From the NCBI RefSeq assembly GCF_004797125.1, contig NZ_CP038810.1:372001-436000 (forward strand): 64,000 nucleotides of DNA. The letters are read 5' to 3'. The notes beneath the pieces are model-generated. The model worked only from the letters and a program-made list of their open reading frames with translations. It did no database searches and was not told the origin of the DNA. Below, piece by piece: positions 20,034-37,653 of this stretch (position 1 is the stretch's first letter; the number at the start of each line of letters is the position of its first letter). A program made the position numbers and the translations under genes. Source of the DNA: Flavobacterium sangjuense. Its GTDB lineage: Bacteria > Bacteroidota > Bacteroidia > Flavobacteriales > Flavobacteriaceae.

Positions 20034-20942
20034 ATGACTTTGGAAACACTAAAGACCATTTTGTATTTTTCTATTTTTAGATATCCTCTTAAAATTGAAG
20101 AAATACATGGTTACACAAACTATGTAGATATCTCAGAAACAGAAAAAGAACTACAGCACTTGATAGATGAAAAAATTCTAATCAGGGTGGATGAATTTTA
20201 TGTGTATGGAAGCGATTTGGATTCCGTTATCAAAAGACTAAGAGGAAACCTCCACGCTAAAAAAGCAATCGTAAAAGCGCAACAAAGAGCGAAATTGATT
20301 GCCAAATTTCCTTATGTTGAAGCGGTTGGGATTTCGGGTTCGTTGTCAAAAGAATATTATGATAACGAAAGTGATATTGACTTTTTTGTCATTACAAAAC
20401 CAAATAAATTGTGGATTTGCAGAACCTTATTAATGCTTTACAAAAAGATATTCCTGCTCAACTCCCGAAAATATTTTTGCGTTAATTACTTCATCTCATC
20501 CAATCAAATGGAAATTCAAGAGAAAAATAGGTTTACTGCTACCGAATTAAAGACTTTGATTCCGATGCATGGCAAGACTATTTTCGAAGAATTTTATCAA
20601 AATAACAAATGGGTAAATGACTATTTTTCAAAGTTTGAACCTCAAATTGACACTATTACAAACACAAACAAACCGGGTTTTTCACGTTTAATTGAATTCG
20701 CTTTTGATACTAAAATTGGGACTATAACTGATGGTGTATTCAAAATGATTACTTTAAAAAAATGGAAGTCCAAATTTCATTACATGAATGAAGAAGATTT
20801 CAAAATCGCACTCAAAACAACCAAATCAGTTTCAAAACACCATCCATCAAACTTTCAAAAAAAAGTTATCTTATCTTTGAATACAAAACTTGAAGAAGTT
20901 CAGTCAAAGTATAATGTAGTTTTACAAAGAGAGCATGTCTAA
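20034..20942 (+). CDS. Winged-helix/nucleotidyltransferase-fold protein, first gene of the radical SAM-glycan operon
   Basis: The 302-residue protein begins with a winged-helix-like segment (about 1-65: TLKTILYFSIFRYPLKIEEIHGYTN). A Pol-beta-type nucleotidyltransferase core follows near residues 100-125: VGISGSLSKEYYDNESDIDFFVI has the G-S-x-(9-13)-D-x-D pattern with two metal-binding Asp. The rest is helical. It could transfer a nucleotide to a sugar, lipid or protein, or act as a regulator; I cannot choose. Its last 8 bases overlap the first radical SAM gene, so they are almost certainly translated together. Confidence 0.7.
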   Translation: MTLETLKTILYFSIFRYPLKIEEIHGYTNYVDISETEKELQHLIDEKILIRVDEFYVYGSDLDSVIKRLRGNLHAKKAIVKAQQRAKLIAKFPYVEAVGISGSLSKEYYDNESDIDFFVITKPNKLWICRTLLMLYKKIFLLNSRKYFCVNYFISSNQMEIQEKNRFTATELKTLIPMHGKTIFEEFYQNNKWVNDYFSKFEPQIDTITNTNKPGFSRLIEFAFDTKIGTITDGVFKMITLKKWKSKFHYMNEEDFKIALKTTKSVSKHHPSNFQKKVILSLNTKLEEVQSKYNVVLQREHV

Positions 20943-22392
20943 TATTCTTTTTTCGCATTCCTATTATTACAAACTTGACCCAAAACAATGGAAAAACAAA
21001 AACCCTTTTCCTCCTTTGGGAACTTTGTATGCGGCTTCTTTATTGCGAAAAAATGGTTTTGAAGTTTCCCTTTTTGACACCAATTTATTGGATTCACCAA
21101 AATCAATCCAACCTATTTTACACAAAACAAAACCGAATTATCTTGTAATTTTTGACGATGGGTTTAATTATCTGACCAAAATGTGCCTGACGAATATGCG
21201 TGAAGCCTGTTTTGAAATGATACGATATGGCAAAAACCACAATTGCACCGTTATTGTCTGCAGTTCAGATTCTACCGATCATTACAAAGAGTATATTGAA
21301 AAAGGCGCTGATTTTATTTTGCAGGGCGAAGGCGAAATCACACTTTTAGAGCTTCTAAAATCAATTGAAGAAAACAAGAACTTTGATGACCTACAAGGAA
21401 TAGTTTTCCAAAAAAATGATGCTATTCAGGTCAATAAAAAAAGAGACGTTCAGCAAGTTTTAGATGAATTTCCTTTACCGGCTTGGGATTTGGTTGATAT
21501 CGAAAGTTATCGCAAAATCTGGAAACAAAGCGGACAGGAATTCACATTAAATATTGCCACCACTCGCGGTTGTCCGTATAAATGTAACTGGTGCGCCAAA
21601 CCCATTTATGGCAATCGTTACAACGCACATTCACCGGAATATATTGTTAGTGAAATTGCTTTTTTGAAAGCCAATTTTGGTGTGACACGTTTTTGGATGT
21701 GTGATGATATTTTTGGCTTAAAGCCAAATTGGGTTCAGGAATTCAACGCCAAATTAAAAGAACAAAATCTAAAAATAAGCTATTATATCCAAAGCCGCGT
21801 TGATTTATTATTGAAAGAAGATACCATTGATTGCCTGGCTGAATCCGGTTTGGAAGAAGTTTGGGTTGGTGCCGAAAGTGCTTCGCAGAAAATTCTGGAT
21901 GCTATGGATAAAGGCACAACGGTTGAACAAATTTATCAGGCAACTGCTATTTTAAAATCTAAAAAAATCAGGGTTGCTTTCTTTTTGCAATTTGGTTATT
22001 TAGACGAAAATCAGGAAGACATTGCCAAAACCATTGCAATGGTTAAAGAGCTAATGCCGGATAATATTGGGATTTCTGTTTCCTATCCGTTGCCGGGAAC
22101 CAAGTTTTACGATAAAGTCAAAGACGATTTAAAACTAAAATCGAATTGGACCGATTCTGACGATTTTGACATGATGTTTAACGGAACTTACAACTCCAAT
22201 TACTACCGAAAACTACAACGCTTCGTTCATAAAGAATTCAGAAAACAACAAGGATTTCAGAATTTGAAACTGGCAATTTCGAATCCGTTAAATTTTTCTG
22301 TTGCTCACTTAAAATCCGTTGCCAAATTAGGTTATTACATTCCGAGTGCATTTTTTGATCGCTTTTTTTTAAAATTTCTAATGACTAAATAA
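20935..22392 (+). CDS. B12-binding-domain radical SAM protein (copy 1)
   Basis: The 485-residue protein has an N-terminal Rossmann-type cobalamin-binding-like domain (about 1-150, with PFPPLGTLYAASLLRKNGFEV and GADFILQGEGEITLLELL). A radical SAM barrel follows with the [4Fe-4S] motif CPYKCNWC (CxxxCxxC) near residue 210. A later GAESASQKILDAMDKG block is usual in this class (BchE/HpnR-like, class B when methyltransferases). The classic DxHxxG cobalamin motif is absent, as in many of these enzymes. Possible reactions are C-methylation at an unactivated carbon or a ring rearrangement. It is paralogous to the protein at 24103. Confidence 0.88.
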   Translation: MSNILFSHSYYYKLDPKQWKNKNPFPPLGTLYAASLLRKNGFEVSLFDTNLLDSPKSIQPILHKTKPNYLVIFDDGFNYLTKMCLTNMREACFEMIRYGKNHNCTVIVCSSDSTDHYKEYIEKGADFILQGEGEITLLELLKSIEENKNFDDLQGIVFQKNDAIQVNKKRDVQQVLDEFPLPAWDLVDIESYRKIWKQSGQEFTLNIATTRGCPYKCNWCAKPIYGNRYNAHSPEYIVSEIAFLKANFGVTRFWMCDDIFGLKPNWVQEFNAKLKEQNLKISYYIQSRVDLLLKEDTIDCLAESGLEEVWVGAESASQKILDAMDKGTTVEQIYQATAILKSKKIRVAFFLQFGYLDENQEDIAKTIAMVKELMPDNIGISVSYPLPGTKFYDKVKDDLKLKSNWTDSDDFDMMFNGTYNSNYYRKLQRFVHKEFRKQQGFQNLKLAISNPLNFSVAHLKSVAKLGYYIPSAFFDRFFLKFLMTK

Positions 22393-22397
22393 ATAGT

Positions 22398-23336
22398 ATG
22401 AATTGGAAAATAAAGGCTGGATTGCAAAAACTACTGGCGCTGACAAAAATTGGCGACCGCTTGAATCATATTCCAGCTACACTTGACAAAAAATACCATT
22501 CAAATGTTGTTTTGTATCAAACCCATGAATGCATCAGACAATTCAGTTATAGTAATATTGATTTATCAAGCCCTAAAACCGCTCTGGAAATTGGGACGGG
22601 ATATTCATTAATTTCTACAGTTGTTTTATCATTATTAGGTTTCCAAAAAATAATTACCGTTGACATCACTAATGATTTAAAATTTTCGACTTTTAAAAAA
22701 CAAGTTCAACATCTTGAAAACCCGGAAAACTTAGAAAAAATTGTTGCCAAAAGTATTTTCCCCGTGGATGTTATTAAACATAAAATCAAACTGATTAAAG
22801 AGGCAAAATCATTCTCAGCGCTTTTTGATTTGTTAAATATAACTTATGTCGCTCCCTATACTTTTGAAGCCATTGAAAACGAATCGGCTGCATTTGATTA
22901 TATAACTTCTTTGGTTGTGCTTGAACATGTTCCACCAAAAATTTTGGAAACCCTATTTGAAAAGACTAAGAAATGGCTGTCCAAAGATGGATTTTGCGTA
23001 CACACCATAAATTTTATTGACCATTTTGCCAATCCGGGATTTTTTCAGGACAGAAGCATTTCTGAATTTAATTTTTTAAAATATTCCGATAGTTACTGGA
23101 ATTCCTGGTCTGGGAATCCTATAGCATACACTAATAGACTTTCTTATCTGTTTTATTTAGAACTTTGTGATAAACACGAATTGAATGTTGTCGATTTTAT
23201 TGGAGAAAATTATCGAGAAAGGAAAGATTTAGATTTGAATCTGATTCACAACGATATCCTGAGAAAATATCGAACATTACCTCAAAAAGAGGATTTGGTA
23301 AAATTTCAAAGAGGCACTTTAATTAGCAAGGCATAA
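22398..23336 (+). CDS. Class I SAM-dependent methyltransferase (copy 1)
   Basis: The 312-residue protein has motif I near residues 62-75 (ALEIGTGYSLISTVV), an acidic end of beta-2 in ITVDIT, and a post-II block SLVVLEHVPPKILETLFEKTKKWL, all features of class I methyltransferases. The insert between beta-2 and the catalytic region is longer than in small-molecule methyltransferases (about 90 residues). It follows the radical SAM gene by 5 bp and precedes another methyltransferase by 2 bp. The acceptor is unknown, probably a sugar or lipid-linked glycan. Confidence 0.8.
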   Translation: MNWKIKAGLQKLLALTKIGDRLNHIPATLDKKYHSNVVLYQTHECIRQFSYSNIDLSSPKTALEIGTGYSLISTVVLSLLGFQKIITVDITNDLKFSTFKKQVQHLENPENLEKIVAKSIFPVDVIKHKIKLIKEAKSFSALFDLLNITYVAPYTFEAIENESAAFDYITSLVVLEHVPPKILETLFEKTKKWLSKDGFCVHTINFIDHFANPGFFQDRSISEFNFLKYSDSYWNSWSGNPIAYTNRLSYLFYLELCDKHELNVVDFIGENYRERKDLDLNLIHNDILRKYRTLPQKEDLVKFQRGTLISKA

Positions 23337-23338
23337 AT

Positions 23339-24106
23339 ATGGAGAACCGTTTTGACAAAGCAGCACTCAATTATGACGCAACATTTACCAATTCTGAAAT
23401 TGGGAAAATGCAACGAAACTTGGTGTACAATCAGCTTTCAAAACAGTTAGATTCAATTCAAAATGTTTTAGAAATCAATTGCGGAACTGGTGAAGATGCG
23501 ATTTGGTTTGCCAAACAAAATTACAAAATTACAGCTACAGATATTTCGCCAAAAATGATTGAAGTCGCTAAAAGTAAAGCAAACCTCAACTTCAAAACGG
23601 CCGATATAAATTCAATTTCTTCCATTTTTGAAGGCGAAAAATTTGATTTGATTTTTTCCAATTTTGGTGGTTTGAATTGTTTGTCGAAATCGGAATTGGA
23701 AAAATTCTTTGCGAATAGCAATTCGATACTTTCTGAAAAAGGAAAATTGGCTTTGGTAATTATGCCGAAGCATACTCTTTGGGAGCAATTTTACTTTTTG
23801 GCGAAAGCCCAATTTTCATCAATATTCAGACGAAAAAAAGAATTCGTTTTAGCCGATGTCGATGGAGAAAAAGTACCAACATATTACTACAACCCAAAAG
23901 ATATCGTAAATTTAGCAAAGCATTATTTTGAACTGGTTGACCAAAAACCAATTGGTTTTTTTGTACCGCCATCCTATTTGGAGTTATTTTTCAAAAACAA
24001 AAAAGGATTATTAGGGTTTTTAAATTCATTTGAAAATAGAATTAAAAACTGGTCTTTCCTGTCAAAATATGCCGATCATTACATCATAATATTGCAAAAA
24101 AGATGA
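23339..24106 (+). CDS. Class I SAM-dependent methyltransferase (copy 2)
   Basis: The 255-residue protein begins MENRFDKAALNYDATF, the N-terminal helix common in UbiE-type methyltransferases. Motif I is VLEINCGTGEDAIWFA (about 40-55), motif II is TATDISPKMIEVAKSKA, and post-II is LIFSNFGGLNCLSKSELEKFF. A C-terminal region with several aromatic residues may shape an acceptor pocket. Its end overlaps the next radical SAM gene by 4 bases (ATGA). The domain layout resembles the protein at 30060, so the operon contains two related enzymes. Confidence 0.85.
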   Translation: MENRFDKAALNYDATFTNSEIGKMQRNLVYNQLSKQLDSIQNVLEINCGTGEDAIWFAKQNYKITATDISPKMIEVAKSKANLNFKTADINSISSIFEGEKFDLIFSNFGGLNCLSKSELEKFFANSNSILSEKGKLALVIMPKHTLWEQFYFLAKAQFSSIFRRKKEFVLADVDGEKVPTYYYNPKDIVNLAKHYFELVDQKPIGFFVPPSYLELFFKNKKGLLGFLNSFENRIKNWSFLSKYADHYIIILQKR

Positions 24107-25473
24107 GTTTGCTTTTTACACATGCCTATTATTTATCTGATGATCCAAAGGAGCAAAAGATAATGAAACCCTATCCACCGTTAGGGTTACTTTATGTTTC
24201 GGGCTATTTGAAAAGCAAAAATATTGCTAATGATGTTTTTGACACGACATTTTCTTCCCAAAAAGAACAACTCGATTTTATAGCTGAAAAAAATCCAAAA
24301 GTCATTTGCATTTACACCAATCTGATGACTAAAATTGAAGTCATCAAACTGATTAAAATTCTGAAAAGCGAAACTTTTGGTTTCCCAAAAATCATTCTTG
24401 GCGGACCGGATGTTACATACAATATTGCCAATTATTTAAAAGCCGGTGCTGATTTTTTAGTCATTGGCGAAGGCGAAGAAACCACGTTTGAATTGTATGA
24501 TGCGATTATGGCAAATGCCGCTTTTCATCAGGTTGACGGCATCGCTTTTTTGGAAAACAATCAAATCATACAAACTACAGCGCGAACCAAATTCAAAGAA
24601 CTGGATGAATTGCCGTTGCCAAATCGCGAAGCCATTAACATGCACAACTATTTGGAAACCTGGAAAACCAATCACGGACAAAGTTCGATGACAATTTCTA
24701 CCCAGCGTGGTTGTCCTTATACCTGCAAATGGTGCAGCACGGCGGTTTATGGACAAAGTTATCGCCGTCGCCCTGCAAATCAAGTGGCGGAAGAAATGAA
24801 AATGCTGAAAGAACAATACAATCCTGATGCGCTTTGGTTTGTGGATGATGTTTTTACAGTAAGTCATAAATGGTTAATCGCTTTCAGAGACGAAGTGTTG
24901 AAACAGGATGCTGTGATTCCTTTTGAATGTATCACAAGAGCCGAACGGTTGAATGAAGAAATTCTGCAACTGCTAAAAGATATTGGTTGTTTCCGAATCT
25001 GGATTGGTGCCGAAAGCGGTTCACAAACCATCATTGATGCAATGGACAGACGTGTTGATGTAAATCAGGTGAAGAAAATAATTCAGGACACGAATGCTAT
25101 GGGAATTGAAACAGGAACATTCATCATGCTTGGTTATCCGGGAGAAACCGAAGAAGACATTACAGAAACGATTCAGTATTTAAAAGATGCTAATCCGACT
25201 TTGTATACGATAACAGTGGCATATCCTATTAAAGGAACTTCATTATATGATGAAATTGAATCTAAAATTACAAGCCAGCCGGAATGGGAAACTTCCACCG
25301 ACCGCGACATCGATTTTGAGCGAACGTATTCCCGAAAATATTACAAATATGCCGTGAGCAAAGTGGTGAATGAAGTCGAATTTCATAAAACCATTTCGAA
25401 AACGAGTTTAAAAGCTTTGAAGTTAAAAACCAAATCTATTTTAGCAACAGGGTTAATGAAATTAAACAAATAA
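24103..25473 (+). CDS. B12-binding-domain radical SAM protein (copy 2)
   Basis: The 456-residue protein is a clear paralog of the product of 20935-22392. The N-terminal B12-type domain includes KPYPPLGLLYVSGYLKSK, GGPDVTYNIANYLKAGADF and GEGEETTFELYDAI. The Fe-S motif is CPYTCKWC near residue 205, within STQRGCPYTCKWCSTAVYG. The later blocks WIGAESGSQTIIDAMDRR and FIMLGYPGETEEDI are standard for the family. Two paralogs in one operon suggest two related modifications of one product. It is ATGA-coupled to the upstream methyltransferase and sits 3 bp before the lipoprotein gene. Confidence 0.88.
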   Translation: MSLLFTHAYYLSDDPKEQKIMKPYPPLGLLYVSGYLKSKNIANDVFDTTFSSQKEQLDFIAEKNPKVICIYTNLMTKIEVIKLIKILKSETFGFPKIILGGPDVTYNIANYLKAGADFLVIGEGEETTFELYDAIMANAAFHQVDGIAFLENNQIIQTTARTKFKELDELPLPNREAINMHNYLETWKTNHGQSSMTISTQRGCPYTCKWCSTAVYGQSYRRRPANQVAEEMKMLKEQYNPDALWFVDDVFTVSHKWLIAFRDEVLKQDAVIPFECITRAERLNEEILQLLKDIGCFRIWIGAESGSQTIIDAMDRRVDVNQVKKIIQDTNAMGIETGTFIMLGYPGETEEDITETIQYLKDANPTLYTITVAYPIKGTSLYDEIESKITSQPEWETSTDRDIDFERTYSRKYYKYAVSKVVNEVEFHKTISKTSLKALKLKTKSILATGLMKLNK

Positions 25474-25476
25474 ATC

Positions 25477-26598
25477 ATGAAAAAAATACTTTTGTTTTTC
25501 TTTTTCATATTGTCCGTTTCCTGTGAAAGAGATTCTTATTCTGATTTAATCGAAACCAAAACCACCATCAATCTCAAATGGAACAAAGCCTATTCTGATG
25601 ACACGATTGACAAATCTTTAATCGGTTTGAAATGGGCACTTTCTTATGTTGGCGCTACCTTACCAAGCTCTAACAGCGGATTTTCAAATACTGAAACTAC
25701 GATTACAATTAATATTAAAAAATTAGGTTTTACCGAAATCGCACAACAAAATCTTTTAAGATTAGCAGAAAAAATAAAAGCCTCTCCCGAGTATCAAACC
25801 AATAATGCTGTTGATTTAGGAAGATTTGTCACGCAGCTGATTGGCGCTTCCGAGCATTATTACAAAATCATTGGAACGCCAAAAACACTTACGGAAGTTA
25901 TGAATCAATACACGCTTTTACCTCAAAAAGGCTATGTTAACAATTCGGGCGTTTCATTGGAACACCGCATCATTCAGTTTTCGGAGCAAAATGGTTTCAA
26001 TCAAGTGTTTCTTTCCGAAGAAGTTGATCCGGTTACGGGTGAGATTTATGAATACGAAACCATCGAATTACTGCCAAATGGTCAATTGCGGTTTGGTATT
26101 TTTGACATTGAAGGCAACCGAAAAAACAATGCTGATTCATCTCATTCTAACGCCGGAAAACCAGCCAAATGTATGTGGTGCCATGAGTCAACCATTCAGC
26201 CGTTATTTTATCCGAACAATGATTATGCAGGATTTTTGAGCGCTGCCGATTTGGGAACTACATTATTGGGTTACCGGGAAAGCCATCGGAACCAAAAATT
26301 AGCCTTAACCAATGGTGTTGATTTTTCACAAACTCAACAACACACCTTAACCGAGTTACTCTATATTTCATTTATGGAACCATCGGCAGAACGGTTGAGT
26401 TTAGAATGGAATTTATCCATAGTACAAGTTCAAAATTTGCTTTCCGGATTGCCAACGCATGTATATGCTGAATTTCCGTTTTTGGGAACTTTATACAATC
26501 GGGAAGATGTCGAAACTTTAGCGCCTTTTCAGGGATTATCCGTTTCGAGTCATGTTAGAGAAGAATCAACTATAGAGGTAAACCATTTAAATGATTAA
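25477..26598 (+). CDS. Lipoprotein with a single CxxCH motif, function unknown
   Basis: The 373-residue protein has a lipoprotein signal (MKKILLFFFFILSVSC, lipobox Cys at residue 16). It contains a single heme-like motif KCMWCHESTIQPLF near residue 228 and is otherwise not recognisable. The CMWCH motif could bind heme c or a metal, but no cytochrome c fold is evident around it. The C-terminal part has a WNLSIVQVQNLLSG block. It is embedded in the glycan operon, 3 bp after one gene and overlapping the next by 8 bp, so it probably serves the same product at the outer envelope. Confidence 0.55.
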   Translation: MKKILLFFFFILSVSCERDSYSDLIETKTTINLKWNKAYSDDTIDKSLIGLKWALSYVGATLPSSNSGFSNTETTITINIKKLGFTEIAQQNLLRLAEKIKASPEYQTNNAVDLGRFVTQLIGASEHYYKIIGTPKTLTEVMNQYTLLPQKGYVNNSGVSLEHRIIQFSEQNGFNQVFLSEEVDPVTGEIYEYETIELLPNGQLRFGIFDIEGNRKNNADSSHSNAGKPAKCMWCHESTIQPLFYPNNDYAGFLSAADLGTTLLGYRESHRNQKLALTNGVDFSQTQQHTLTELLYISFMEPSAERLSLEWNLSIVQVQNLLSGLPTHVYAEFPFLGTLYNREDVETLAPFQGLSVSSHVREESTIEVNHLND

Positions 26599-27337
26599 CA
26601 ACAAAAAAATAATCGTTGTACTTCCTGCTTACAACGCCGGGAAAACACTTCAAAAAACCTTTGAAGAAATTCCGTTTGACGTTGTTGATGATTTGATTTT
26701 GACTGATGATTTTAGTAATGACGAAACGATAGAAGTTGCGAAAAAAATCGGCATCAAAAACATCATTGCCCATGATAAAAACAAAGGCTATGGCGCGAAT
26801 CAGAAATCGTGTTACCAAAAAGCGTTTGAACTCAATGCCGATATTATCGTAATGCTTCATCCGGATTATCAATATACACCAAAGCTAATTCCGGCGATGT
26901 GCTCGTTGGTTGCAAACGATTTGTACGATGTTGTTTTGGGTTCCCGAATTTTAAGTAAAGGAGCGCTGAAAGGCGGAATGCCTTTGTATAAATACATTTC
27001 GAATAGGATTTTGACTTTCATTCAGAATGTTTTGATGAATCAAAAACTATCCGAATATCATACGGGTTATCGCTGTTTCGATGCGCAATTGTTACAGAAA
27101 ATTGACTTCGAAAACAACTCGGATGATTTTGTTTTTGACAATGAAATCATTGCACAATGTTGCTTTTTGAATGCAAAAATTGGTGAGATATCCTGCCCGG
27201 CAAATTATTTTGAAGAAGCTAGTTCTATTAATTTTAGTAGAAGTATAACCTATGGCTTAGGCGTTTTGAGAGTTTCTATTTCATATTTTTTACAGAAAAT
27301 TAAATTGGGTTCGTTTCCTGTTTTTAAGAATTTATGA
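26591..27337 (+). CDS. Glycosyltransferase family 2 (DPM-like)
   Basis: The 248-residue protein has the GT2 fold: IIVVLPAYNAGKTL at the N terminus, LILTDDFSNDETIEVAKK (donor binding), NKGYGANQKSCYQKAF, and the metal-site region MLHPDYQYTPKLI, where HPDYQ replaces a classical DxD. The block GSRILSKGALKGGMPLYKYISNRILTF matches dolichyl/polyprenyl-phosphate mannosyltransferase-like enzymes, and there is no C-terminal membrane pair. It probably makes a polyprenyl-phosphate sugar used by a membrane GT-C enzyme. That fits the GT87-like gene that overlaps it by 4 bases. Confidence 0.85.
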   Translation: MINNKKIIVVLPAYNAGKTLQKTFEEIPFDVVDDLILTDDFSNDETIEVAKKIGIKNIIAHDKNKGYGANQKSCYQKAFELNADIIVMLHPDYQYTPKLIPAMCSLVANDLYDVVLGSRILSKGALKGGMPLYKYISNRILTFIQNVLMNQKLSEYHTGYRCFDAQLLQKIDFENNSDDFVFDNEIIAQCCFLNAKIGEISCPANYFEEASSINFSRSITYGLGVLRVSISYFLQKIKLGSFPVFKNL

Positions 27338-28884: not shown

Positions 28885-30053
28885 ATCTAAAAAAGACATT
28901 CGACAGGATAAAACTTGTTTTGATCAACATCCTCAAGCAAGTATTGGGTCAGGTGCTAACCCTGATTCTGTCGGTCATTATATTCAAATGGGATTCAAAA
29001 GAATTATGGGGCGAATTTGCCGCCTATTTTATTTATGTCAATATCCTAATTACAATCATCAGCTGGGGAAATAAGGAATTCTTGATTCGGGAATTCAGTA
29101 AAGCGCCAAACAAAATAATAGAGAATTTCTATCTGGTTTTTAATTCGCGCTTGCCGCTATTAGTCCTTGCCGTTGTAGCGGCTTTGTTTGTTTTCCCAAT
29201 CAGCTGTTTCTGGTTTTTTGCCCTTTGGATAATCAGCGTTTATATTTCACAATCACTTGAAGTTTTTTGGATTTACAAAAGAGATTATGCCAAATCAATT
29301 CTCCTGGAAATACTGTCGTTTTCAGGGCTGGTTTTGTTGCTTTTTTATAATAAAATAAATAGTGACAAGCTTATCGAATATTATTCCTATTACCAATTGA
29401 TGCGTGCTATTTTATATATCATTCTTTATGCTTCGGAATTAAAAAAACTTCATTTTGCCATAGACAAAAAATATTTTGTCACTGCTGTTTCCTTCTTTTT
29501 GCTGGGTTTGGTTGGATTTCTTCAATCGCGAATGGATTTTGTAATAATCACTTTTTTCGAATCTGATCAGAACGTAGCGGTTTACCAAATCATCACCACT
29601 TTTTTCATATTGATTCATGCTTTGGGAACCTTTTTAATTTTTCCTTATATGAAGAACATCTATCGATTGCAAAAGAGTTCAGTGAGTGTTTTTCAACGGT
29701 TTATTGCTGTCATCTCGCCTTTGGTAGTGTGCTTCTGTTTGGCGGTTTTGTTTTTGATTATGCATTATGTTTATAACATTAGCCTTGATTACCATTACTA
29801 TTTATTGGGGTTTTTAATCACTTTCCCACCCTATTTATACACGGTCAAAATATTGATTTTATATAAAGAAAACAAGCAGGGTTTTATTCTAAAGACCGGA
29901 ATTATAGCCATCGTAATTAACAGTTTAGCTTCTATTCTTTTGCTTTATCTTGGTTATGGATTAAAAGGTGCTTTGATGGGTTCGGCTATTGCTCATCTAT
30001 TTACAGCCTATCAATATCTCACCCATTTTTCAACTCAAACTCAAAAAGCATAA
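28881..30053 (+). CDS. Wzx-like polysaccharide flippase (MOP superfamily)
   Basis: The 390-residue protein has about eleven to twelve membrane helices (for example VLTLILSVIIFKW, LLVLAVVAALFVFPISCFWFF and LLGFLITFPPYLYTVKIL). The pattern of Wzx/RfbX-type flippases appears in YAAYF-like helix 2, SRMDFVIITFF (helix 7 start) and a later ALMGSAIAHLFTAYQYL. It is slightly short for the family (usually 400-480). It would flip a lipid-linked glycan across the inner membrane. Its presence argues that the operon makes a lipid-linked, exported molecule. Confidence 0.75.
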   Translation: MNLKKTFDRIKLVLINILKQVLGQVLTLILSVIIFKWDSKELWGEFAAYFIYVNILITIISWGNKEFLIREFSKAPNKIIENFYLVFNSRLPLLVLAVVAALFVFPISCFWFFALWIISVYISQSLEVFWIYKRDYAKSILLEILSFSGLVLLLFYNKINSDKLIEYYSYYQLMRAILYIILYASELKKLHFAIDKKYFVTAVSFFLLGLVGFLQSRMDFVIITFFESDQNVAVYQIITTFFILIHALGTFLIFPYMKNIYRLQKSSVSVFQRFIAVISPLVVCFCLAVLFLIMHYVYNISLDYHYYLLGFLITFPPYLYTVKILILYKENKQGFILKTGIIAIVINSLASILLLYLGYGLKGALMGSAIAHLFTAYQYLTHFSTQTQKA

Positions 30054-30059
30054 CGCGAA

Positions 30060-30758
30060 ATGAAGCCCAATCAAAAACATATCAGCAAACAAAATAACCG
30101 CTATTATGATAAAATAGCAGCGGATTATGATGCCATGCTGAGCCATAATACCCAAGAGGATTTTCTGCGTAAAAAAGTAGCTGAGAAATTAACTTCCTTT
30201 TTGAAAGAAGGCACTGTTTTAGATTTTGGAGGAGGAACGGGAGAAGATTTAAAATGGTTATTGGAACATCATTACAAAGTGATTTTTTGCGAACCTTCAT
30301 CCGGTATGCGAAAGATGGCGATGGACAAATTCCCGGAAGCCGGAATTGTGTTTTTGGAAAACAGTCAAACCGATTTTACAAGTTGGGATGAAACGCTTCC
30401 GTTTCAAGAGAAAGTCAATGGTGTAATAGCCAATTTTGCTGTGCTGAATTGTATTTTAGATCTGGATTTATTCTTTAAGAAATTGACTTTGATAACCGCT
30501 GAAAAGGCTGAAATTGTGTTGCTGGTTTTACATTACAATCTGAAAAAAAGAATGCAAATGAACTTTTTCGGAGCACTAAAATCGCTAAACGGAGCTAAGC
30601 CTATGAACGTAAAAGTGGCTTTTCAGGGTGAAAAACAATTGGTTTATCTTCATTCGGTGAAATCAATTCGGAAAGCGACTGCAGAATATTTTGAATTCCA
30701 AAGTTGTGAGTTGTTAAAAGAAGAAGGTTTTTCATTAATCCATTTGACAAAAAAATGA
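30060..30758 (+). CDS. Class I SAM-dependent methyltransferase (copy 3)
   Basis: The 232-residue protein begins with the helix NNRYYDKIAADYDAML. Motif I is VLDFGGGTGEDLKWLLEHHY (about 53-72), and motif II is VIFCEPSSGMRKMAMDKFPEAG. The post-II region is GVIANFAVLNCILDLDLFFKKL. The overall layout resembles the methyltransferase at 23339. It follows the flippase by 6 bp and overlaps the next gene by 4 (ATGA). The acceptor is unknown. Confidence 0.85.
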   Translation: MKPNQKHISKQNNRYYDKIAADYDAMLSHNTQEDFLRKKVAEKLTSFLKEGTVLDFGGGTGEDLKWLLEHHYKVIFCEPSSGMRKMAMDKFPEAGIVFLENSQTDFTSWDETLPFQEKVNGVIANFAVLNCILDLDLFFKKLTLITAEKAEIVLLVLHYNLKKRMQMNFFGALKSLNGAKPMNVKVAFQGEKQLVYLHSVKSIRKATAEYFEFQSCELLKEEGFSLIHLTKK

Positions 30759-31663
30759 AAAAACTGCTCAACATATTACTATTTGGAAATACTTTCTTTA
30801 AAGAATATCCGGCTGTCTCGATTGATGAAAATGAGATAAAAGAAAGGGTATTCTTTGAGGTTGACGGAAAACAAATCGATGTTTCCCAAAGGCATTGGTT
30901 GCTCTCATTGGAACCTATGGTTTTTGGAATTTGGTTTGAAAATGTACCAAATTTTGATAAAAAAACCAAGGGAAAATTGTATTTCAAGTCGGGTCAAAAT
31001 AAAACACTAGCAATCGTAGAATTAAATCTAACCGAAAGCATCACTGAAAAAGAAGGCATTTTGCTTTTGTTTACCGTTGAAGAAAGCAACTTGTTTTATA
31101 TAAGTCCGTTTAAAACAAAACTGATTTACGAACTGTATTATAAAAAGCCAAACCTGTCGTACATTCTATTCAAAAACCTTGCGGCTGCTTTTAGTTATCC
31201 GCGAAAAGTGCGGTTGGTTTCCTTTAAAAAAGACGATTATTTCAATATTTTCCCGATGGATTTGGCTGGCAATATTCCGAACACGAATTATTTTGTTTTT
31301 GGATTACGGCATACCAACAACACACTCGATAAAATTATAGAAGAAAAGAAAATCGTTGTGGCGGAATTTCCATCGACTTTAAAGGAGGAAATTTATCAAT
31401 TGGCCAAGCATCATTCCGGAAATCCGCCAAGTGTTGACGCCTTGCCCTTTTCAATTTTGGAAACTAATTCATATCAATTTCCTATTCCCGAATCGGTCAT
31501 ACAATATGACGAAATCGAAATTTTAAAAACGCTGAATTTAGGAAGCCATATGTTGCTCTTTGGGAAAACCATCAACACGATTGTTGTAAATGAAAATGCG
31601 GCCAATTTGTATCACATCCATTTTTTAAACCATCTAAATCAAAACCAATATGAACCAACTTAA
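30755..31663 (+). CDS. Unassigned protein, possible flavin-reductase-like split barrel
   Basis: This 302-residue soluble protein is not confidently recognised. The middle part (PRKVRLVSFKKDDYFNIFPMDLAGN, then YFVFGLRHTNNTLDKIIEEKKIVVAEF) resembles the FMN-binding split-barrel fold of flavin-reductase-like proteins. The N-terminal third has a separate beta-rich segment (KGKLYFKSGQNKTLAIVELN). If the split barrel is real, it could bind FMN or act as a non-enzymatic partner of a radical SAM protein. It is the last gene of the 11-gene operon and its stop overlaps the stop of the reverse FkbM gene. Confidence 0.4.
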   Translation: MKKLLNILLFGNTFFKEYPAVSIDENEIKERVFFEVDGKQIDVSQRHWLLSLEPMVFGIWFENVPNFDKKTKGKLYFKSGQNKTLAIVELNLTESITEKEGILLLFTVEESNLFYISPFKTKLIYELYYKKPNLSYILFKNLAAAFSYPRKVRLVSFKKDDYFNIFPMDLAGNIPNTNYFVFGLRHTNNTLDKIIEEKKIVVAEFPSTLKEEIYQLAKHHSGNPPSVDALPFSILETNSYQFPIPESVIQYDEIEILKTLNLGSHMLLFGKTINTIVVNENAANLYHIHFLNHLNQNQYEPT

Positions 31664-32595
31664 AGTTTTTTAACCCATTGCAACACCATTGGCGGACACA
31701 GATTGATGATGAGTTGTTTAATTTTTTTTCTAAAAGAAATAAAATTATGATTCGTAAAAACCTTTTGCTCTTCCATTGATAAACTGGAAGTATTGAGTAA
31801 GTAGGAACCTAAACTATAGTAACCTAACCAAAGTAAGAGAAAACCTGATTTTATTTTGTTTTCATTGCTTAAAAATTCAGAATCCAGAACATAAATAGCA
31901 TCGCCGCAAGGTGCATAATGACAATTTTTATCATGACTATTAGCCAAAACCGGAGTGTAATTTTCTCTGTAAGTAATAAAATCAACCAGTACATAACCTT
32001 TATCCCTTAAATAGATGTCGATATCCGAAAACAACACCTGATTTTGATAAACTGCTATGGTTGACACTTCAACTTTTAGAATATTTATTCGTTTTTCGTT
32101 GAGCAACTTTTCTGCACCATGCAAAATTTTCAATTCTGAACCTTGCGTGTCAATTTTTAAATAATCAATTGTCTCATCTTTGTCTTTTATGAAATTATCC
32201 AGTGTAACCGCCGAAGTCTTAATTACATTTTCAATGGCAATGTTTGACTTCCAATTGTCAAAGTTTTTATATAAACCAAAATGCTTTTGATAGTTGCCCA
32301 AATCTGTTTCAAGCAGACTGCTCATAGAGCTGTGCTTTGTAACATTAAAGGAAACTTCGCCTTCACAATCCGACAAACAATCACCAATTAAAGCTAATGA
32401 CTTAAAATTATGTTGAATGTATTTTTCTTTAAGTATTTCCAATTCGATTGGATTGGGTTCGAAGCCGATAATATTGGTTATTGTCGACAAGTCTTCCAAA
32501 AAATCAAGCTTGTCTTTGGCGCCAACATCGATAAAAAACAAAGATTCAATGTTTTTCCTCTTTAAGATTTGAACTAAATCGTTTGTTTTATTCAT
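31660..32595 (-). CDS. FkbM-family methyltransferase
   Basis: The 311-residue protein has the FkbM signature: LFFIDVGAKDKLDFL, then IIGFEPNPIELEILKEK, LIGDCLSDCEGEVSFN, then TLDNFIKDKDETIDYLKIDTQGSELKILHGAEKLL. The SLLETDL stretch is also typical. FkbM enzymes usually O-methylate sugars or polyketides. It is the only gene of the cluster on the minus strand and overlaps the last operon gene by 4 bp, tail to tail. Its promoter region (32596-32664) is shared divergently with the acyltransferase gene. Confidence 0.9.
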   Translation of the reverse strand: MNKTNDLVQILKRKNIESLFFIDVGAKDKLDFLEDLSTITNIIGFEPNPIELEILKEKYIQHNFKSLALIGDCLSDCEGEVSFNVTKHSSMSSLLETDLGNYQKHFGLYKNFDNWKSNIAIENVIKTSAVTLDNFIKDKDETIDYLKIDTQGSELKILHGAEKLLNEKRINILKVEVSTIAVYQNQVLFSDIDIYLRDKGYVLVDFITYRENYTPVLANSHDKNCHYAPCGDAIYVLDSEFLSNENKIKSGFLLLWLGYYSLGSYLLNTSSLSMEEQKVFTNHNFISFRKKIKQLIINLCPPMVLQWVKKL

Positions 32596-32664
32596 TGTAC
32601 AAAAGAAGTGATTGGATTAATTATCAAATTTATAAATTTATAGCTTACAAAAAACGAAACCCTG

Positions 32665-33735
32665 ATGGACACCACGATGCATAAAAGAATTCCCGGACTC
32701 GATGTACTTCGAACCCTGTGCCTTTTCTTCGTGTTAACGCAGCATTCTTTTATGTTTACGGATGCCTATTTTCCTGAGTTTCGGATAATGTGGATAATGT
32801 CTCATTACGCACTTGATTTGTTCTGTATCTTAAGTGGTTTTTTGATTGCGGGAATAATTGAAAAACGGTACCGTGAAACCAACAAAATAACTTTTTCGGA
32901 CATGCTCACTTTTTACAAAAGAAGGAGTTTTAAGATCCTTCCGATGTATTATATAGTCATTGCTATCTGCTTGTTTTTATCAAACATTGGATGGTATTAC
33001 CCAAAGGATTTTTCCTGGAAATTTCTGGTGTTTCTTCAAAATTTGCATCGTGGTGATTTTCATTTTTTGCCCCATACCCATTCGTTAACTATTCAGGAAT
33101 GGTTTTGCCTGCTTTTCCCTTTAACCATTTTATTTTTATTTAAGTTTTTGCCGAAGTCCGAATACAATCCCATTCTTATTGGCGCATTTATTTGGATGGC
33201 TGTTGGATTTGTCAATCGTTGGATTGTGCACTCTCATGGAGTCGAAAGTTGGGATATTGAAATCCGTAAAACAATACTAACCCGAATAGATGCGGTCATT
33301 TATGGCGTTTTGTTTTACTTCATTCAATTGCATTTTTCGGAGTTTTTGAAAAAGAACAAATTGAAATTATTGCTCGTTAGTTTTACTCTTTATCTGTTGG
33401 CTACATATATTCTGGCGCAAAAATATTCGCCTTTTTTCAATAATGTGGTTTATTATTCGTTGGTCACTTTTATTGTCAGTTTCGCGTTGCCGTATTTTAT
33501 ACATTTAAAGCTTCCTGAGCAGCCACAAAAAATCTTTACTTTTATTGGATTGTCATCTTATTCGATTTATCTGATTCACTTACCTTTACTCTACATTATT
33601 TTTGATCGCATTCAGGCAACCAACAAATGCGAATCATTATTGTTTTTGGTTGGAATGCTGTTGCTTACGAATATTGTTGGAATGCTGTTTTATATATTCG
33701 TAGAAAACCCAATTATGAAATTAAGAGATAAATAA
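32665..33735 (+). CDS. Acyltransferase 3 family (OafA/YrhL-like) membrane protein
   Basis: The 356-residue protein has about ten membrane helices. It starts with RIPGLDVLRTLCLFFVLTQHSFMF (the R...H block of AT3 proteins). Then come YALDLFCILSGFLIAGII, FYKRRSFKILPMYYIVIAICLFL, and SLTIQEWFCLLFPLTILFLF, where the usual W-[ST]-L-x-x-E is altered to S-L-T-I-Q-E-W. The end is FIGLSSYSIYLIHLPLLYIIF. The family O-acylates surface glycans or lipids at the inner membrane. It is the first gene of a three-gene unit, 3 bp before the third radical SAM gene. Confidence 0.9.
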   Translation: MDTTMHKRIPGLDVLRTLCLFFVLTQHSFMFTDAYFPEFRIMWIMSHYALDLFCILSGFLIAGIIEKRYRETNKITFSDMLTFYKRRSFKILPMYYIVIAICLFLSNIGWYYPKDFSWKFLVFLQNLHRGDFHFLPHTHSLTIQEWFCLLFPLTILFLFKFLPKSEYNPILIGAFIWMAVGFVNRWIVHSHGVESWDIEIRKTILTRIDAVIYGVLFYFIQLHFSEFLKKNKLKLLLVSFTLYLLATYILAQKYSPFFNNVVYYSLVTFIVSFALPYFIHLKLPEQPQKIFTFIGLSSYSIYLIHLPLLYIIFDRIQATNKCESLLFLVGMLLLTNIVGMLFYIFVENPIMKLRDK

Positions 33736-33737
33736 AA

Positions 33738-35261
33738 ATGCCAACGAACAAAATAATCATATTCAATCCAAAAAGTGCTAACGGAAAACATCGGATTCCC
33801 AATTCGATATTGCAGGTTGGAGCCGCTGTTCATGGCAAATATGAGTATGTTTTTGTGGATGGCAATTTGGAGAAAAATCCCTGGGAAACCATTGAAAATT
33901 ATTTAAAATCGGGTGATTATAAATACTTTGGTTCAACCGTGATGCCTGGTCCGCAACTGCGTCAGGCGATTCCGTTTACCAAAAAAATAAAAGAATTATT
34001 TCCCGAAACCGTTACGGTTTGGGGCGGTTATTTTGCGGCCAATCAGTATAAAGTTTCCTTGGAATCTGGTGTTGTTGATTATGTTATTAACGGTCCGGGC
34101 GATGTAGCTTTTCCTTCTTTAATTGAGGCTTTGGAAAATAATGAAAAAGAAAAAATCTTCTTAATCAAAAACTTAATTTATAAAAACGATAAAGGAGAAA
34201 TCGTTAAAACCGCTGTCGAAGCTTTACTCGACCAAGATACGCTGCCTAAGTTTCCTTATGAGTATTTGAATTCGTTTTATCCAGTCAAAAATTATTTGGC
34301 CAAAACCTTTATGGGTAACAAAACCCTATCATATCATTCGAGTATGGGCTGTCCTTTTTCATGTTCGTTTTGCGCTGTGGTTCCAATTTATAATGCCAAA
34401 TGGAAAGGAATGTCAGCCACCAGAATTTATGAAGATGTCAAATATTTTAAAGACAAATACAACATTGACGCAGTCGAATTCCACGATAATAATTTCTTTA
34501 CTTCCAAAAAAAGAGTTTTAGAATTTTCGGAATTAATAATGAATGATGGAATCAGTTATTGGGGCGAAGGCCGCATCGATACTATTAATATGTATAGTGA
34601 TGATGAACTAAAACTGATGCGAAAAGCCGGTTGCAAAATGATTTTTCTTGGTGCTGAAACCGGAAATGATGCCGTCCTGAAACAAATGAACAAAGGCGGA
34701 ACGCAAACCGGACAAATGATTAAAGATTTTGTCCTGCGGATGAAAAATGCCGATATCATTCCGGAATTGTCTTTTGTTCTTGGAATGCCTGCCAAAACTG
34801 AGAAGGAAGTCTATGAGCAAATTTTGTGGGACATCAATTTCATCAAAGAAATAAAAGAAATCAATCCGAATGCGGAGATTATCATTTATCTTTTTAGTCC
34901 CGTGCCAACAGAAGGTTCCGACTTATACAAGCAAATTCTCGATGCCGGTTTTTCGTTTCCTAAACATTTGGAAAACTGGATTTCACCGAGTTGGGAAAAC
35001 TTCGATTTGCGGAAAAATCCACTAACGCCTTGGTTAAAACCTTACATGATTGACACCATTAAAAATTTTGAAACCGTTTTGAATGGTTATTATCCAACGG
35101 TTTCCGATTTCAGGGTTCGTGGTTTTAAAAGAACCGTTTTGACAACAGTCGCAAGTTGGCGTTATAAAACCGGAGTTTATAATTATCCATATGAAATAAA
35201 GGCTTTACATAAACTTTGGAAGTATCGCCAACCGGAGATTGAAGGATTCTATTCAGAATAG
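33738..35261 (+). CDS. B12-binding-domain radical SAM protein (copy 3, divergent)
   Basis: The 507-residue protein is more distant from the two other radical SAM proteins. The N-terminal B12-type domain includes SILQVGAAVHGKYEYVFVDGN, TVWGGYFAANQYKVSLESG and VDYVINGPGDVAFPSL. The Fe-S site is CPFSCSFC near residue 207, within SSMGCPFSCSFCAVVPIYN, followed by VEFHDNNFFTSKKRV and FLGAETGNDAVLKQMNKGG. The C-terminal region is rich in Trp and Tyr. The length and block pattern match class B methyltransferase-like proteins. It abuts the HemK-like gene downstream (stop followed at once by ATG). Confidence 0.87.
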   Translation: MPTNKIIIFNPKSANGKHRIPNSILQVGAAVHGKYEYVFVDGNLEKNPWETIENYLKSGDYKYFGSTVMPGPQLRQAIPFTKKIKELFPETVTVWGGYFAANQYKVSLESGVVDYVINGPGDVAFPSLIEALENNEKEKIFLIKNLIYKNDKGEIVKTAVEALLDQDTLPKFPYEYLNSFYPVKNYLAKTFMGNKTLSYHSSMGCPFSCSFCAVVPIYNAKWKGMSATRIYEDVKYFKDKYNIDAVEFHDNNFFTSKKRVLEFSELIMNDGISYWGEGRIDTINMYSDDELKLMRKAGCKMIFLGAETGNDAVLKQMNKGGTQTGQMIKDFVLRMKNADIIPELSFVLGMPAKTEKEVYEQILWDINFIKEIKEINPNAEIIIYLFSPVPTEGSDLYKQILDAGFSFPKHLENWISPSWENFDLRKNPLTPWLKPYMIDTIKNFETVLNGYYPTVSDFRVRGFKRTVLTTVASWRYKTGVYNYPYEIKALHKLWKYRQPEIEGFYSE

Positions 35262-35921
35262 ATGAGAAATTTTATTAAAAAAATATCGCATCCTTTTTTG
35301 AAACTTGGTTTACGATTTTATTATTGGAAGCCGAGGACTTTTTGCTACGACAATATTTGCATCAAAGTGCATTCTGAAGTCTTTCCGCCTAAAATGACAT
35401 TCAGCACTAATATTCTTTTGGACTTTGTCAAAAAATTAGATTTACAAAACAAATCCTTTTTGGAGCTTGGCTGTGGTAGTGGCATTATTTCGCTTTTGGC
35501 AGCAAAAAATGGCGCAGCTGTAACTGCTTCGGATGTGAATCAAATTGCTTTGGATTTTCTGGAAACCAATGCTTCAAAAAATAAGCTGAAGCTAAAAATC
35601 ATTTATTCTGATTTGTTTGACAATCTGAAAAATCAAACTTTTGATTATATAATTATCAATCCACCATATTATCCAAAAACTCCAAAAAACATAAAAGAAC
35701 ATGCTTGGTTTTGTGGTGAAAACTTTGAGTATTTTGAAAAACTATTTGTTCAGCTACCCAATTATTTGGCAGCGGGTGATTGTTATATGATTTTGTCACA
35801 AGATTGTGATATTGAAAAAATAAAAGCCATAGCATTGAGGAACGCTCTGGCTTTTGAACTTGTTTTCGAAAAGAAAAATTTGGTTGAAACCAATTATCTA
35901 TTTAAAGTAGCTTCCTTGTAG
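35262..35921 (+). CDS. HemK/PrmC-like class I methyltransferase
   Basis: The 219-residue protein has motif I SFLELGCGSGIISLLAAKNGA (about 68-88), then TASDVNQIALDFLETNASKN, then the catalytic YIIINPPYYPKTPKN. The NPPY motif is used by N-methyltransferases acting on amide or exocyclic amino groups (PrmC, TaqI-like, RsmC-like). It may therefore methylate a nitrogen of an amino sugar or of a protein rather than an oxygen. It is the last gene of the second unit. Its end overlaps the convergent LacI-type gene by 20 bp. Confidence 0.82.
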   Translation: MRNFIKKISHPFLKLGLRFYYWKPRTFCYDNICIKVHSEVFPPKMTFSTNILLDFVKKLDLQNKSFLELGCGSGIISLLAAKNGAAVTASDVNQIALDFLETNASKNKLKLKIIYSDLFDNLKNQTFDYIIINPPYYPKTPKNIKEHAWFCGENFEYFEKLFVQLPNYLAAGDCYMILSQDCDIEKIKAIALRNALAFELVFEKKNLVETNYLFKVASL

Positions 35922-37197: not shown

Positions 37198-37653
37198 ATG
37201 GACGCATTAAGCTACAAGACACAATCTACAACCAAAGCCACTGCTCAAAAAGAGTGGATCATTGTAGATGCTGATGGTCATAACTTAGGTCGTTTTGCTT
37301 CAAAAGTTGCGATGCTTTTAAGAGGTAAATACAAGCCAAGTTACACACCTCACGTCGACTGTGGAGATAACGTAATTGTTATCAACGCAGAGAAAATCAA
37401 CCTTACAGGAAACAAACTTGACGAGAAAACGTACATCCGTCACACAGGTTACCCAGGAGGACAAAGAAGTTTGACTGCTAAAGTTATGCAACAAAAGAAT
37501 CCTGCATTACTAGTAGAAAAAGCTGTTAAAGGAATGTTACCTAAAAATAAATTAGGTGCTGAACTTTTCAGAAATTTAAATGTTGTTGTAGGTACAGAGC
37601 ACAAACAAGGCGCTCAAAAACCTAAAACAGTTAACCTTAACGATCTTAAATAA
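37198..37653 (+). CDS. rplM: 50S ribosomal protein L13
   Basis: The 151-residue protein contains WIIVDADGHNLGRFASKVAMLLRGK, YTPHVDCGDNVIVINAEKI and YIRHTGYPGGQR, the characteristic L13 blocks, and ends near VGTEHKQGAQKP. Length is normal. Its TAA overlaps the ATG of rpsI by one base. It is the first gene of the rplM-rpsI-rpsB-tsf cluster, transcribed from a strong promoter. Confidence 0.98.
   Translation: MDALSYKTQSTTKATAQKEWIIVDADGHNLGRFASKVAMLLRGKYKPSYTPHVDCGDNVIVINAEKINLTGNKLDEKTYIRHTGYPGGQRSLTAKVMQQKNPALLVEKAVKGMLPKNKLGAELFRNLNVVVGTEHKQGAQKPKTVNLNDLK

Follow-up and report, generated by a model that had tools for sequence, protein, structure and literature searches.

What does a gene block that combines three B12-type radical S-adenosylmethionine (SAM) proteins with methyltransferases, glycosyltransferases and a putative flippase make, and is it kept as one unit in related bacteria? 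This question is raised by a block of about 16 kb and 15 genes (positions 20034-35921) in a stretch of 64,000 nucleotides from Flavobacterium sangjuense, hereafter called the window, which corresponds to C1:372001-436000 of the complete 3.13 Mb genome. Our comparison of related genomes revealed that the block occupies one chromosomal site, that the genes at its ends recur, and that its interior is swapped between species. Moreover, a nucleotidyltransferase-like gene (NTase), a radical SAM gene (rSAM1) and a methyltransferase gene (MT2), at times with the radical SAM gene rSAM2 or with the radical SAM and methyltransferase genes rSAM3 and MT4, co-occur tightly across the Bacteroidota, mostly amid genes for glycan assembly. 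We therefore consider it probable, with some reservation, that the block is a surface-glycan island, where a common unit produced by radical chemistry is decorated by variable glycosylation.

Recurring ends and an exchanged centre

The recurring genes of the block, hereafter the module, and the genes that flank it are the following.

16029..18887, + strand: polA, left flank (NF004397 above cut-off)
20034..20942, + strand: NTase, nucleotidyltransferase fold, core, left end (PF01909 22.7 bits, cut-off 21, marginal)
20935..22392, + strand: rSAM1, B12-type radical SAM protein, core (PF04055 67.5 bits; PF02310 below cut-off)
23339..24106, + strand: MT2, class I methyltransferase, core (PF13649 65.4 bits)
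24103..25473, + strand: rSAM2, B12-type radical SAM protein, core mostly in Flavobacteriaceae (PF04055 88.8 bits, PF02310 43.8 bits)
33738..35261, + strand: rSAM3, B12-type radical SAM protein, right end (PF04055 56.9 bits)
35262..35921, + strand: MT4, MTS/HemK-type methyltransferase with an NPPY motif, right end (PF05175 66.6 bits)
35902..36927, - strand: LacI-family regulator, right flank, also present at most empty sites (PF13377/PF00356)
37198..37653, + strand: rplM, right flank (TIGR01066 above cut-off)

NTase, rSAM1, MT2 and rSAM2 were present in all 18 Flavobacterium stretches of at least 14 kb, rSAM3 in 13 and MT4 in 12. It should be noted that the complete score of rSAM2 arises by construction, all of these stretches but one having been found with rSAM2 itself, and that some stretches end short of the right side, where rSAM3 and MT4 are located. 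Within Flavobacterium (6 to 20 sequences per gene), the median pairwise identity was 0.87 for rSAM3 (15 sequences), 0.78 for rSAM2 and 0.74 for rSAM1; the flanking genes rplM (10 sequences) and polA (18 sequences) gave 0.89 and 0.81, respectively. The other genes of the block in the window are listed below.

22398..23336, + strand: MT1, accessory methyltransferase (PF13489 29.1 bits)
25477..26598, + strand: lipoprotein with one CxxCH motif and a lipobox-like start, common central cassette
26591..27337, + strand: GT2, glycosyltransferase like polyprenyl-phosphate sugar synthases (PF00535 61 bits)
27334..28884, + strand: GT87 family GT-C glycosyltransferase (PF09594 90 bits; 11 hydrophobic stretches)
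28881..30053, + strand: Wzx-like putative flippase, the most variable of the compared genes (10 hydrophobic stretches)
30060..30758, + strand: MT3, accessory methyltransferase (PF13489 37.2 bits)
30755..31663, + strand: remote flavin-reductase-like protein (PF01613 23.4 bits, below the cut-off of 27)
31660..32595, - strand: FkbM methyltransferase, convergent (PF05050 79.6 bits)
32665..33735, + strand: membrane acyltransferase, accessory (PF01757 78.8 bits)

The corresponding medians for central genes were 0.62 for the lipoprotein (9 sequences), 0.50 for GT87 (9 sequences) and 0.28 for the flippase (13 sequences). When pairwise distances were compared with those of polA, Spearman coefficients of 0.60 for rSAM1 and 0.44 for rSAM2 were reached by 1 and 0 of 500 permutations, respectively, while those for MT2 (0.43), MT4 (0.36) and rSAM3 (0.34) were reached by 8, 13 and 21. 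The NTase distances followed polA weakly (0.25; 46 of 500 permutations) and the flippase distances did not follow it (0.07; 150 of 500). The lipoprotein and GT87 gave 0.51 and 0.49 with seven taxa only (66 and 79 of 500 permutations).

Gene content also differs between close relatives. The window carries MT1 and the acyltransferase, both of which are missing from its nearest relative, L041 (L and G numbers denote our loci and genomes). Among 20 stretches from 19 other Flavobacterium genomes that were compared as carriers of the module (of 20 positive genomes, G172 was left out), MT3 was found in L041 only and MT1 in none. A relative of MT1 with 69% identity is located at the same position in another genus (L118:5111-6052), which, together with its absence from the 20 Flavobacterium stretches, points to cassette exchange. 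Other centres hold family 4 glycosyltransferases (GT4), ABC transporters, SPASM-type radical SAM proteins, arylsulfotransferase lipoproteins, PMT_2-type enzymes and polysaccharide deacetylases. An arylsulfotransferase with a cadherin-like domain was seen in the central cassette at L043:6432-7907 and L049:2339-3787, its cluster being represented also in L046 and L054; its presence there suggests that sulphation of some products takes place outside the cytoplasm.

The first-pass annotation of the window had treated the 11 genes from 20034 to 31663 as one system. This order was not conserved in relatives: NTase, rSAM1 and MT2 recur, as do rSAM2 in some groups and rSAM3 with MT4 in part of the loci, and the rest is exchanged. 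The idea of a conserved 11-gene operon as the unit was accordingly abandoned, because the centre is replaced between species. What was found instead is the pattern of an antigen-type locus, with one site, recurring terminal genes and a replaced interior; L042, L056, G448 and L046 are exceptions to it.

One chromosomal site between polA and rplM

The block forms an island with polA on its left and LacI/rplM on its right. polA was located within zero to two genes of the left end of the module in 17 of the 20 carrier stretches, and LacI and/or rplM to its right in 14 of them. In the remaining stretches the contig ends before the right flank, except for L046, which has three other genes after MT4 in the same stretch. 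As controls, we examined 20 of the 56 Flavobacterium genomes that lack the module. Here, polA and rplM fell within a single 14 kb stretch in 17 cases, with 1-5 genes of at least 100 codons between them, and in the other three polA was outside the stretch; the core profiles matched nothing in any of these 20 stretches. The same site is used in two other genera (L114 and L125).

A protein of 877-890 residues, grouped by site and size, was observed at the polA-rplM site in L251 and L253, which lack the module, and in the carrier L042 (13010-15682). The site may thus collect other cargo as well.

Distribution across genomes and phyla

With rSAM2 as query, 21 of 150 Flavobacterium genomes were positive, 19 of them through an orthologue with 74% identity or more, and rSAM1 was found in 16 of 199 Flavobacteriaceae genomes, sampled at almost one per genus. 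When each protein was queried separately against 296 Bacteroidota genomes, NTase was detected in 25, rSAM1 in 24 and rSAM3 in 14; the E-value thresholds for rSAM1 and rSAM3 (1e-140 and 1e-120) exclude paralogs from the superfamily. All 24 genomes with rSAM1 had NTase, and all 14 with rSAM3 had rSAM1. The p-values of this co-occurrence ignore kinship, the 24 positives falling in 12 families. G437 is the weakest of the 24 rSAM1 matches and is borderline; leaving it out gives 23 of 23. The additional NTase genome, G386, has a partial match with an internal stop.

Of the 23 genomes that have NTase and rSAM1 on one contig, 18 show a distance of 300 bp or less between them, the largest gap being 4.35 kb. 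In 20 stretches from the 25 NTase-positive genomes, a radical SAM gene of the module was close to NTase in all 20, named by BLAST as rSAM1 in 19 and as rSAM2 (41%) in L146, which belongs to G437. Relatives of rSAM1 were present in at least 550 stretches from named genome records. The best 80 of these stem from Bacteroidota, Ignavibacteria, Kapaibacterium, Chlorobi/Chlorobiota and Chloroflexi/Anaerolineae, many of them being metagenome-assembled genomes, and hold NTase (65), MT2 (63) and rSAM3 (39) within nine genes of rSAM1; short contigs account for some of the misses. rSAM2 is more restricted, with 18 of 18 stretches in Flavobacterium, 10 of 14 in other Flavobacteriaceae, 2 of 15 in other Bacteroidota and 9 of 52 in the named records.

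Glycan genes around the module

For the genomic context we used the 99 stretches of at least 14 kb among the 132 loci with rSAM1, labelling genes with our own profiles at hand-set score thresholds. A glycosyltransferase profile matched in 88 of the 99, namely in 17 of 18 Flavobacterium, 13 of 14 other Flavobacteriaceae, 11 of 15 other Bacteroidota and 47 of 52 named-record stretches. A flippase, ABC transporter or polymerase was matched in 62 of the 99 (15/18, 8/14, 8/15 and 31/52, in the same order). Where at least 4 kb was available on both sides of rSAM1, the counts were 56 and 37 of 65, compared to 0 of 20 in the controls lacking the module. Representatives of the neighbouring genes had Pfam matches to Wzy_C, Bac_transf, Polysacc_synt, Polysacc_deac_1, PMT_2, GT87, GT4, GT2 and GT9. 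The export of a glycan or glycolipid, as previously put forward for the window, thus gains support from related loci, and its attribution to a single conserved 11-gene system does not.

The best NCBIfam families for GT2, all below cut-off, are AglJ, dolichyl-phosphate hexose transferase and PpgS. GT-C enzymes typically take sugars from polyprenyl-linked donors, and the likeness of GT2 to polyprenyl-phosphate sugar synthases fits because its GT-C partner would use polyprenyl-phosphate sugars. The putative flippase had no Pfam match; its relative in the homologous locus L125 (19% identical) reached 21.2 bits with Polysacc_synt (PF01943), below the cut-off of 28.2.

The island as a proposed source of variable surface glycans, and what speaks against it

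In the reading that we favour, the module would build one common, radically modified unit in the cytoplasm, such as a sugar, a cyclitol or a lipid-linked first residue, with rSAM1 and MT2 presumably working on the same intermediate. Extension of this unit would then fall to variable glycosyltransferases and methyltransferases, and flipping of the product to the Wzx-like protein. In the version present in the window, GT2 would make a polyprenyl-phosphate sugar that GT87 could use outside the inner membrane. All carriers would share the recurring part, and the middle would determine a species- or strain-specific surface. A bolder proposal is that NTase, rSAM1 and MT2, often with rSAM3 and MT4, constitute an undescribed cross-phylum module whose sequential cobalamin radical chemistry, possibly ring-forming instead of methylating, builds a new sugar or lipid-linked root unit for variable surface glycans; we regard this as tentative and, at present, less than an even prospect.

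Some observations weigh against a glycan island of this kind. rSAM3 is missing from L042 and L056, both seen from flank to flank, and from G448. Identity of NTase, MT2 and MT4 in Flavobacterium is only 0.58-0.59 (medians of 0.59, 0.58 and 0.59), so that half of the core is kept in presence more than in sequence, and GT2, where present, reaches 0.85 (6 sequences), so that the variation of the centre is mainly one of gene content. The NTase has no good match among solved structures, an MNT-antitoxin giving 15.1 bits (E 0.13) and others 16.1 and 15.3 bits (E 0.053 and 0.099). In two 21 kb stretches from Anaerolineae (L178 and L186), rSAM1 has no NTase or MT2 nearby. The glycan-gene profiles were built from the same loci in which they were counted and the control was small; the gene identities therefore rest on the Pfam scans of representatives. 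Furthermore, 11 of the 99 stretches, including L138 and L143-L145, had no glycosyltransferase profile match, and the module may serve some separate function. Finally, the 15 proteins of the window's locus include no match to an initiating sugar-phosphate transferase (PF02397), to Wzy (PF04932) or to a nucleotide-sugar gene. Three Bac_transf (PF02397) genes are located elsewhere in the host genome, and since these sugar-phosphate transferases belong to other loci, this bacterium probably has at least one further polysaccharide locus beside the island.

Radical SAM proteins and their possible chemistry

The three radical SAM proteins are predicted to be of the cobalamin-dependent type, judging from their domains and motif. 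Radical_SAM (PF04055) was above the Pfam cut-off in all three. The B12-binding domain (PF02310, cut-off 32.1 bits) was above it in rSAM2 (43.8 bits) and below it in rSAM1 (25.3 bits) and rSAM3 (27.5 bits). All three cysteines of CxxxCxxC were invariant in 48 rSAM1, 13 rSAM2 and 12 rSAM3 aligned sequences. Cobalamin is probably in use in the host, as its genome encodes MetH (TIGR02082 above cut-off), an IcmF-like mutase (a partial stretch, below cut-off) and a further B12-type radical SAM protein.

BchE was the best NCBIfam family for rSAM1, rSAM2 and rSAM3, with 144.8, 162.5 and 115.0 bits against a cut-off of 481.35, i.e. about a quarter to a third of what that family requires. HpnJ followed with 121.3, 137.2 and 98.4 bits (cut-off 577.6), ranking second for rSAM1 and rSAM3 and second or third across all three. 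TIGR04295 (B12_rSAM_oligo) gave 94.7, 81.4 and 33.5 bits (cut-off 400). As a profile against solved structures, rSAM1 matched 9ccb, 6fd2, OxsB, TokK and CysS at 75 to 34 bits. Because all family scores listed are far below their cut-offs, the chemistry is not readable from the sequence. In L145, rSAM1 and MT2 are naturally fused in a single protein of 727 residues, with 51% and 28% identity to the respective proteins of the window, which suggests that the two act on the same intermediate.

This fusion gene (L145:5241-7424) is located two genes before a RelA/SpoT-type gene, and no glycosyltransferase profile matched in its stretch. In L143, MT2 is continued in the same chain by a stretch that weakly matches GT29 (20.5 bits, cut-off 23), and in L122 it is fused to another methyltransferase. 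A SPASM-type radical SAM protein (L177:8942-9994 and its relatives) was present in 32 of the 132 loci, in 25 of them immediately before rSAM1 (offset -1); the NCBIfam scores shown for the L177 protein are all below cut-off. The fourth B12-type radical SAM protein of the host is encoded outside the island at C1:1699701 (L238); it has 728 residues, and its nearest families, PhpK and methylase families for ribosomally synthesised and post-translationally modified peptides, scored far below their cut-offs.

Alternative explanations

C-methylation, which the first-pass annotation had assigned to the radical SAM proteins, is possible, though an assumption. If rSAM1, rSAM2 and rSAM3 were all C-methylases, the product would be a lipid-linked glycan with C-methylated, branched sugars or lipids. 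Cobalamin-dependent radical SAM enzymes are mostly methylases, according to a 2026 preprint (PMC13142503), and the methylase families PhpK (112.2 bits), HpnR (101.6 bits) and Sden_1168 (96.9 bits) also match rSAM1. However, the family on top for all three proteins, BchE, is described there as a non-methylase, and HpnJ, second or third, is a non-methylase too, albeit with scores far below cut-off throughout; in addition, the class I methyltransferases could supply methyl groups without the radical SAM proteins. We consider this explanation rather unlikely. The same ranking speaks for another possibility, in which the radical SAM proteins would perform ring-forming or oxidative chemistry like that of BchE and HpnJ on a unit linked to a lipid or activated by a nucleotide, for example by converting a sugar ring to a cyclitol, with MT2 protecting or priming the substrate. 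The non-methylating members known so far form or rearrange rings, as stated in the same preprint. An amidohydrolase nearest to the aminofutalosine deaminase family in 31 of the 99 stretches, and a nucleoside-phosphorylase-like gene in 7, could act on an adenosine-bearing intermediate, yet they may simply remove 5'-deoxyadenosine. The low scores for all families count against this explanation as well, which likewise strikes us as doubtful.

The nature of the product can also be viewed differently. A secreted small molecule, i.e. a glycosylated secondary metabolite for which the flippase-like gene would encode the exporter, would be in line with the missing initiating transferase and polymerase in the window's locus and with the stretches devoid of a glycosyltransferase match. 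Against this, Wzy-type profiles matched in 23 and Bac_transf-type profiles in 13 of the 99 related stretches, GT-C enzymes typically use polyprenyl-linked donors, and no synthetase for polyketides or peptides was among the Pfam matches of the 20 window proteins scanned, a search that did not extend to short precursor-peptide genes. Such a metabolite therefore appears improbable. Bacteroidota are known for general O-glycosylation, and PMT_2-type GT-C enzymes occur in some central cassettes, so that an oligosaccharide might be moved to periplasmic or outer-membrane proteins; no recognised oligosaccharyltransferase was among the Pfam matches of the window's locus, and we judge this to be quite improbable. 

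If the surface-glycan island that we favour is real, many bacteria make a surface component by radical chemistry outside the named pathways that we found, and the few B12-type radical SAM enzymes whose roles in glycans or lipids are known would gain further members. Surface variation in Flavobacterium and other Bacteroidota could then also be traced with the module as a marker. Which genes recur and which are exchanged tells where deletion or expression should begin.

Layout and other genes of the block

The gene order, the overlaps, the three B12-type radical SAM proteins and the five methyltransferases reported in the first-pass annotation were confirmed, with all 15 genes at their expected places; by Pfam, the five are class I methyltransferases, including the FkbM protein on the reverse strand. 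Pfam also supports GT2, GT87 and the acyltransferase (Acyl_transf_3), the NTase is marginal, and the flippase stands without a domain match. In the annotation being confirmed, some genes went unnamed. Two genes were missing from its list, those for the lipoprotein and the flavin-reductase-like protein. Within the run from 20034 to 31663, neighbouring genes overlap by 8, 4, 8, 4, 4 and 4 bp or are separated by gaps of 5, 2, 3 and 6 bp, and by this spacing alone they are predicted to form an operon. Promoter and terminator scans gave no signal above shuffled sequences, and an Rfam search of 15000-39000 matched no RNA family. A foreign origin by composition was considered and rejected, there being no clear outlier among the block genes (GC 0.31-0.38; GC at third codon positions 0.28-0.39) in comparison with polA (0.385 and 0.349) and rplM (0.375 and 0.283).

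In the NTase, G102, D114 and D116 were invariant in 53 sequences. MT4 has an NPPY motif, as typically found in enzymes that N-methylate planar amides or amines. The single CxxCH of the lipoprotein is a haem c-type motif, its CxxC cysteines being invariant in 20 aligned sequences and the following histidine in 19. A protein database search at E <= 0.001 gave 733 relatives of the lipoprotein, with no Pfam domain among the 120 matches listed, and the closest named one, from 'Flavobacterium sp. AS60', is 97% identical; neither the lipoprotein nor the flippase matched the PDB at E <= 1. We rejected the lipoprotein as a core gene, since it was found in 9 of 150 Flavobacterium genomes compared to 21 with rSAM1 and/or rSAM2, all 9 falling within these 21. 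GT87 was likewise rejected as a marker: it was detected in 1 of 60 genomes, that of the window itself, though three of the other 59 (G011, G021 and G034) also carry the module. The flavin-reductase-like protein is perhaps a redox partner. Its cluster was present in 14 of the 132 module loci (e.g. L058:9550-10440, L121:7815-8759 and L134:5995-6981), and with 21-24% identity between loci it evolves fast.

Comparison with known systems

Neither NCBIfam nor the open-licence literature yielded a named family or pathway for the gene set. An island with conserved ends and a variable centre is known in kind; the radical SAM core and its product are without description in the open-licence literature searched. 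The closest parallel in architecture is offered by Wzx/Wzy loci for O-antigen or capsule, such as the O-polysaccharide locus of Flavobacterium psychrophilum, where, in the parts of the two reports at hand (PMC6519341, PMC5601056), glycosyltransferases, a flippase and variable genes are set in a more conserved frame, as is the case here with a putative flippase. That locus carries rmlA, rmlB, wbpM, wbuA and wzy, whereas the locus in the window has no matches to Wzy, initiating-transferase or nucleotide-sugar genes and has three B12-type radical SAM genes; the word 'radical' is absent from the main text of both reports.

Other parallels concern the enzymes. In the hopanoid pathway, as here, a B12-type radical SAM protein (HpnJ) stands beside glycan enzymes. 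HpnI and HpnK accompany HpnJ, acting on a glycosylated lipid, whereas the radical SAM proteins studied here are accompanied by the NTase and several class I methyltransferases (hopanoid genes were not searched for). BchM and BchE are the methyltransferase and B12-type radical SAM cyclase pair of bacteriochlorophyll synthesis and resemble the pairing of a class I methyltransferase with a BchE-like radical SAM protein in the module, although the Pfam matches of the window's locus include no tetrapyrrole genes. The swf operon of a sponge symbiont, as presented in part of PMC3908369, likewise contains a B12-type radical SAM gene in an operon of unknown product; it is built, however, on a mono-modular polyketide/fatty acid synthase, of which there is none among the Pfam matches here. 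The TIGR04295 family resembles the module in its B12-type radical SAM proteins, and its short name, B12_rSAM_oligo, as we read it, suggests oligosaccharide loci.

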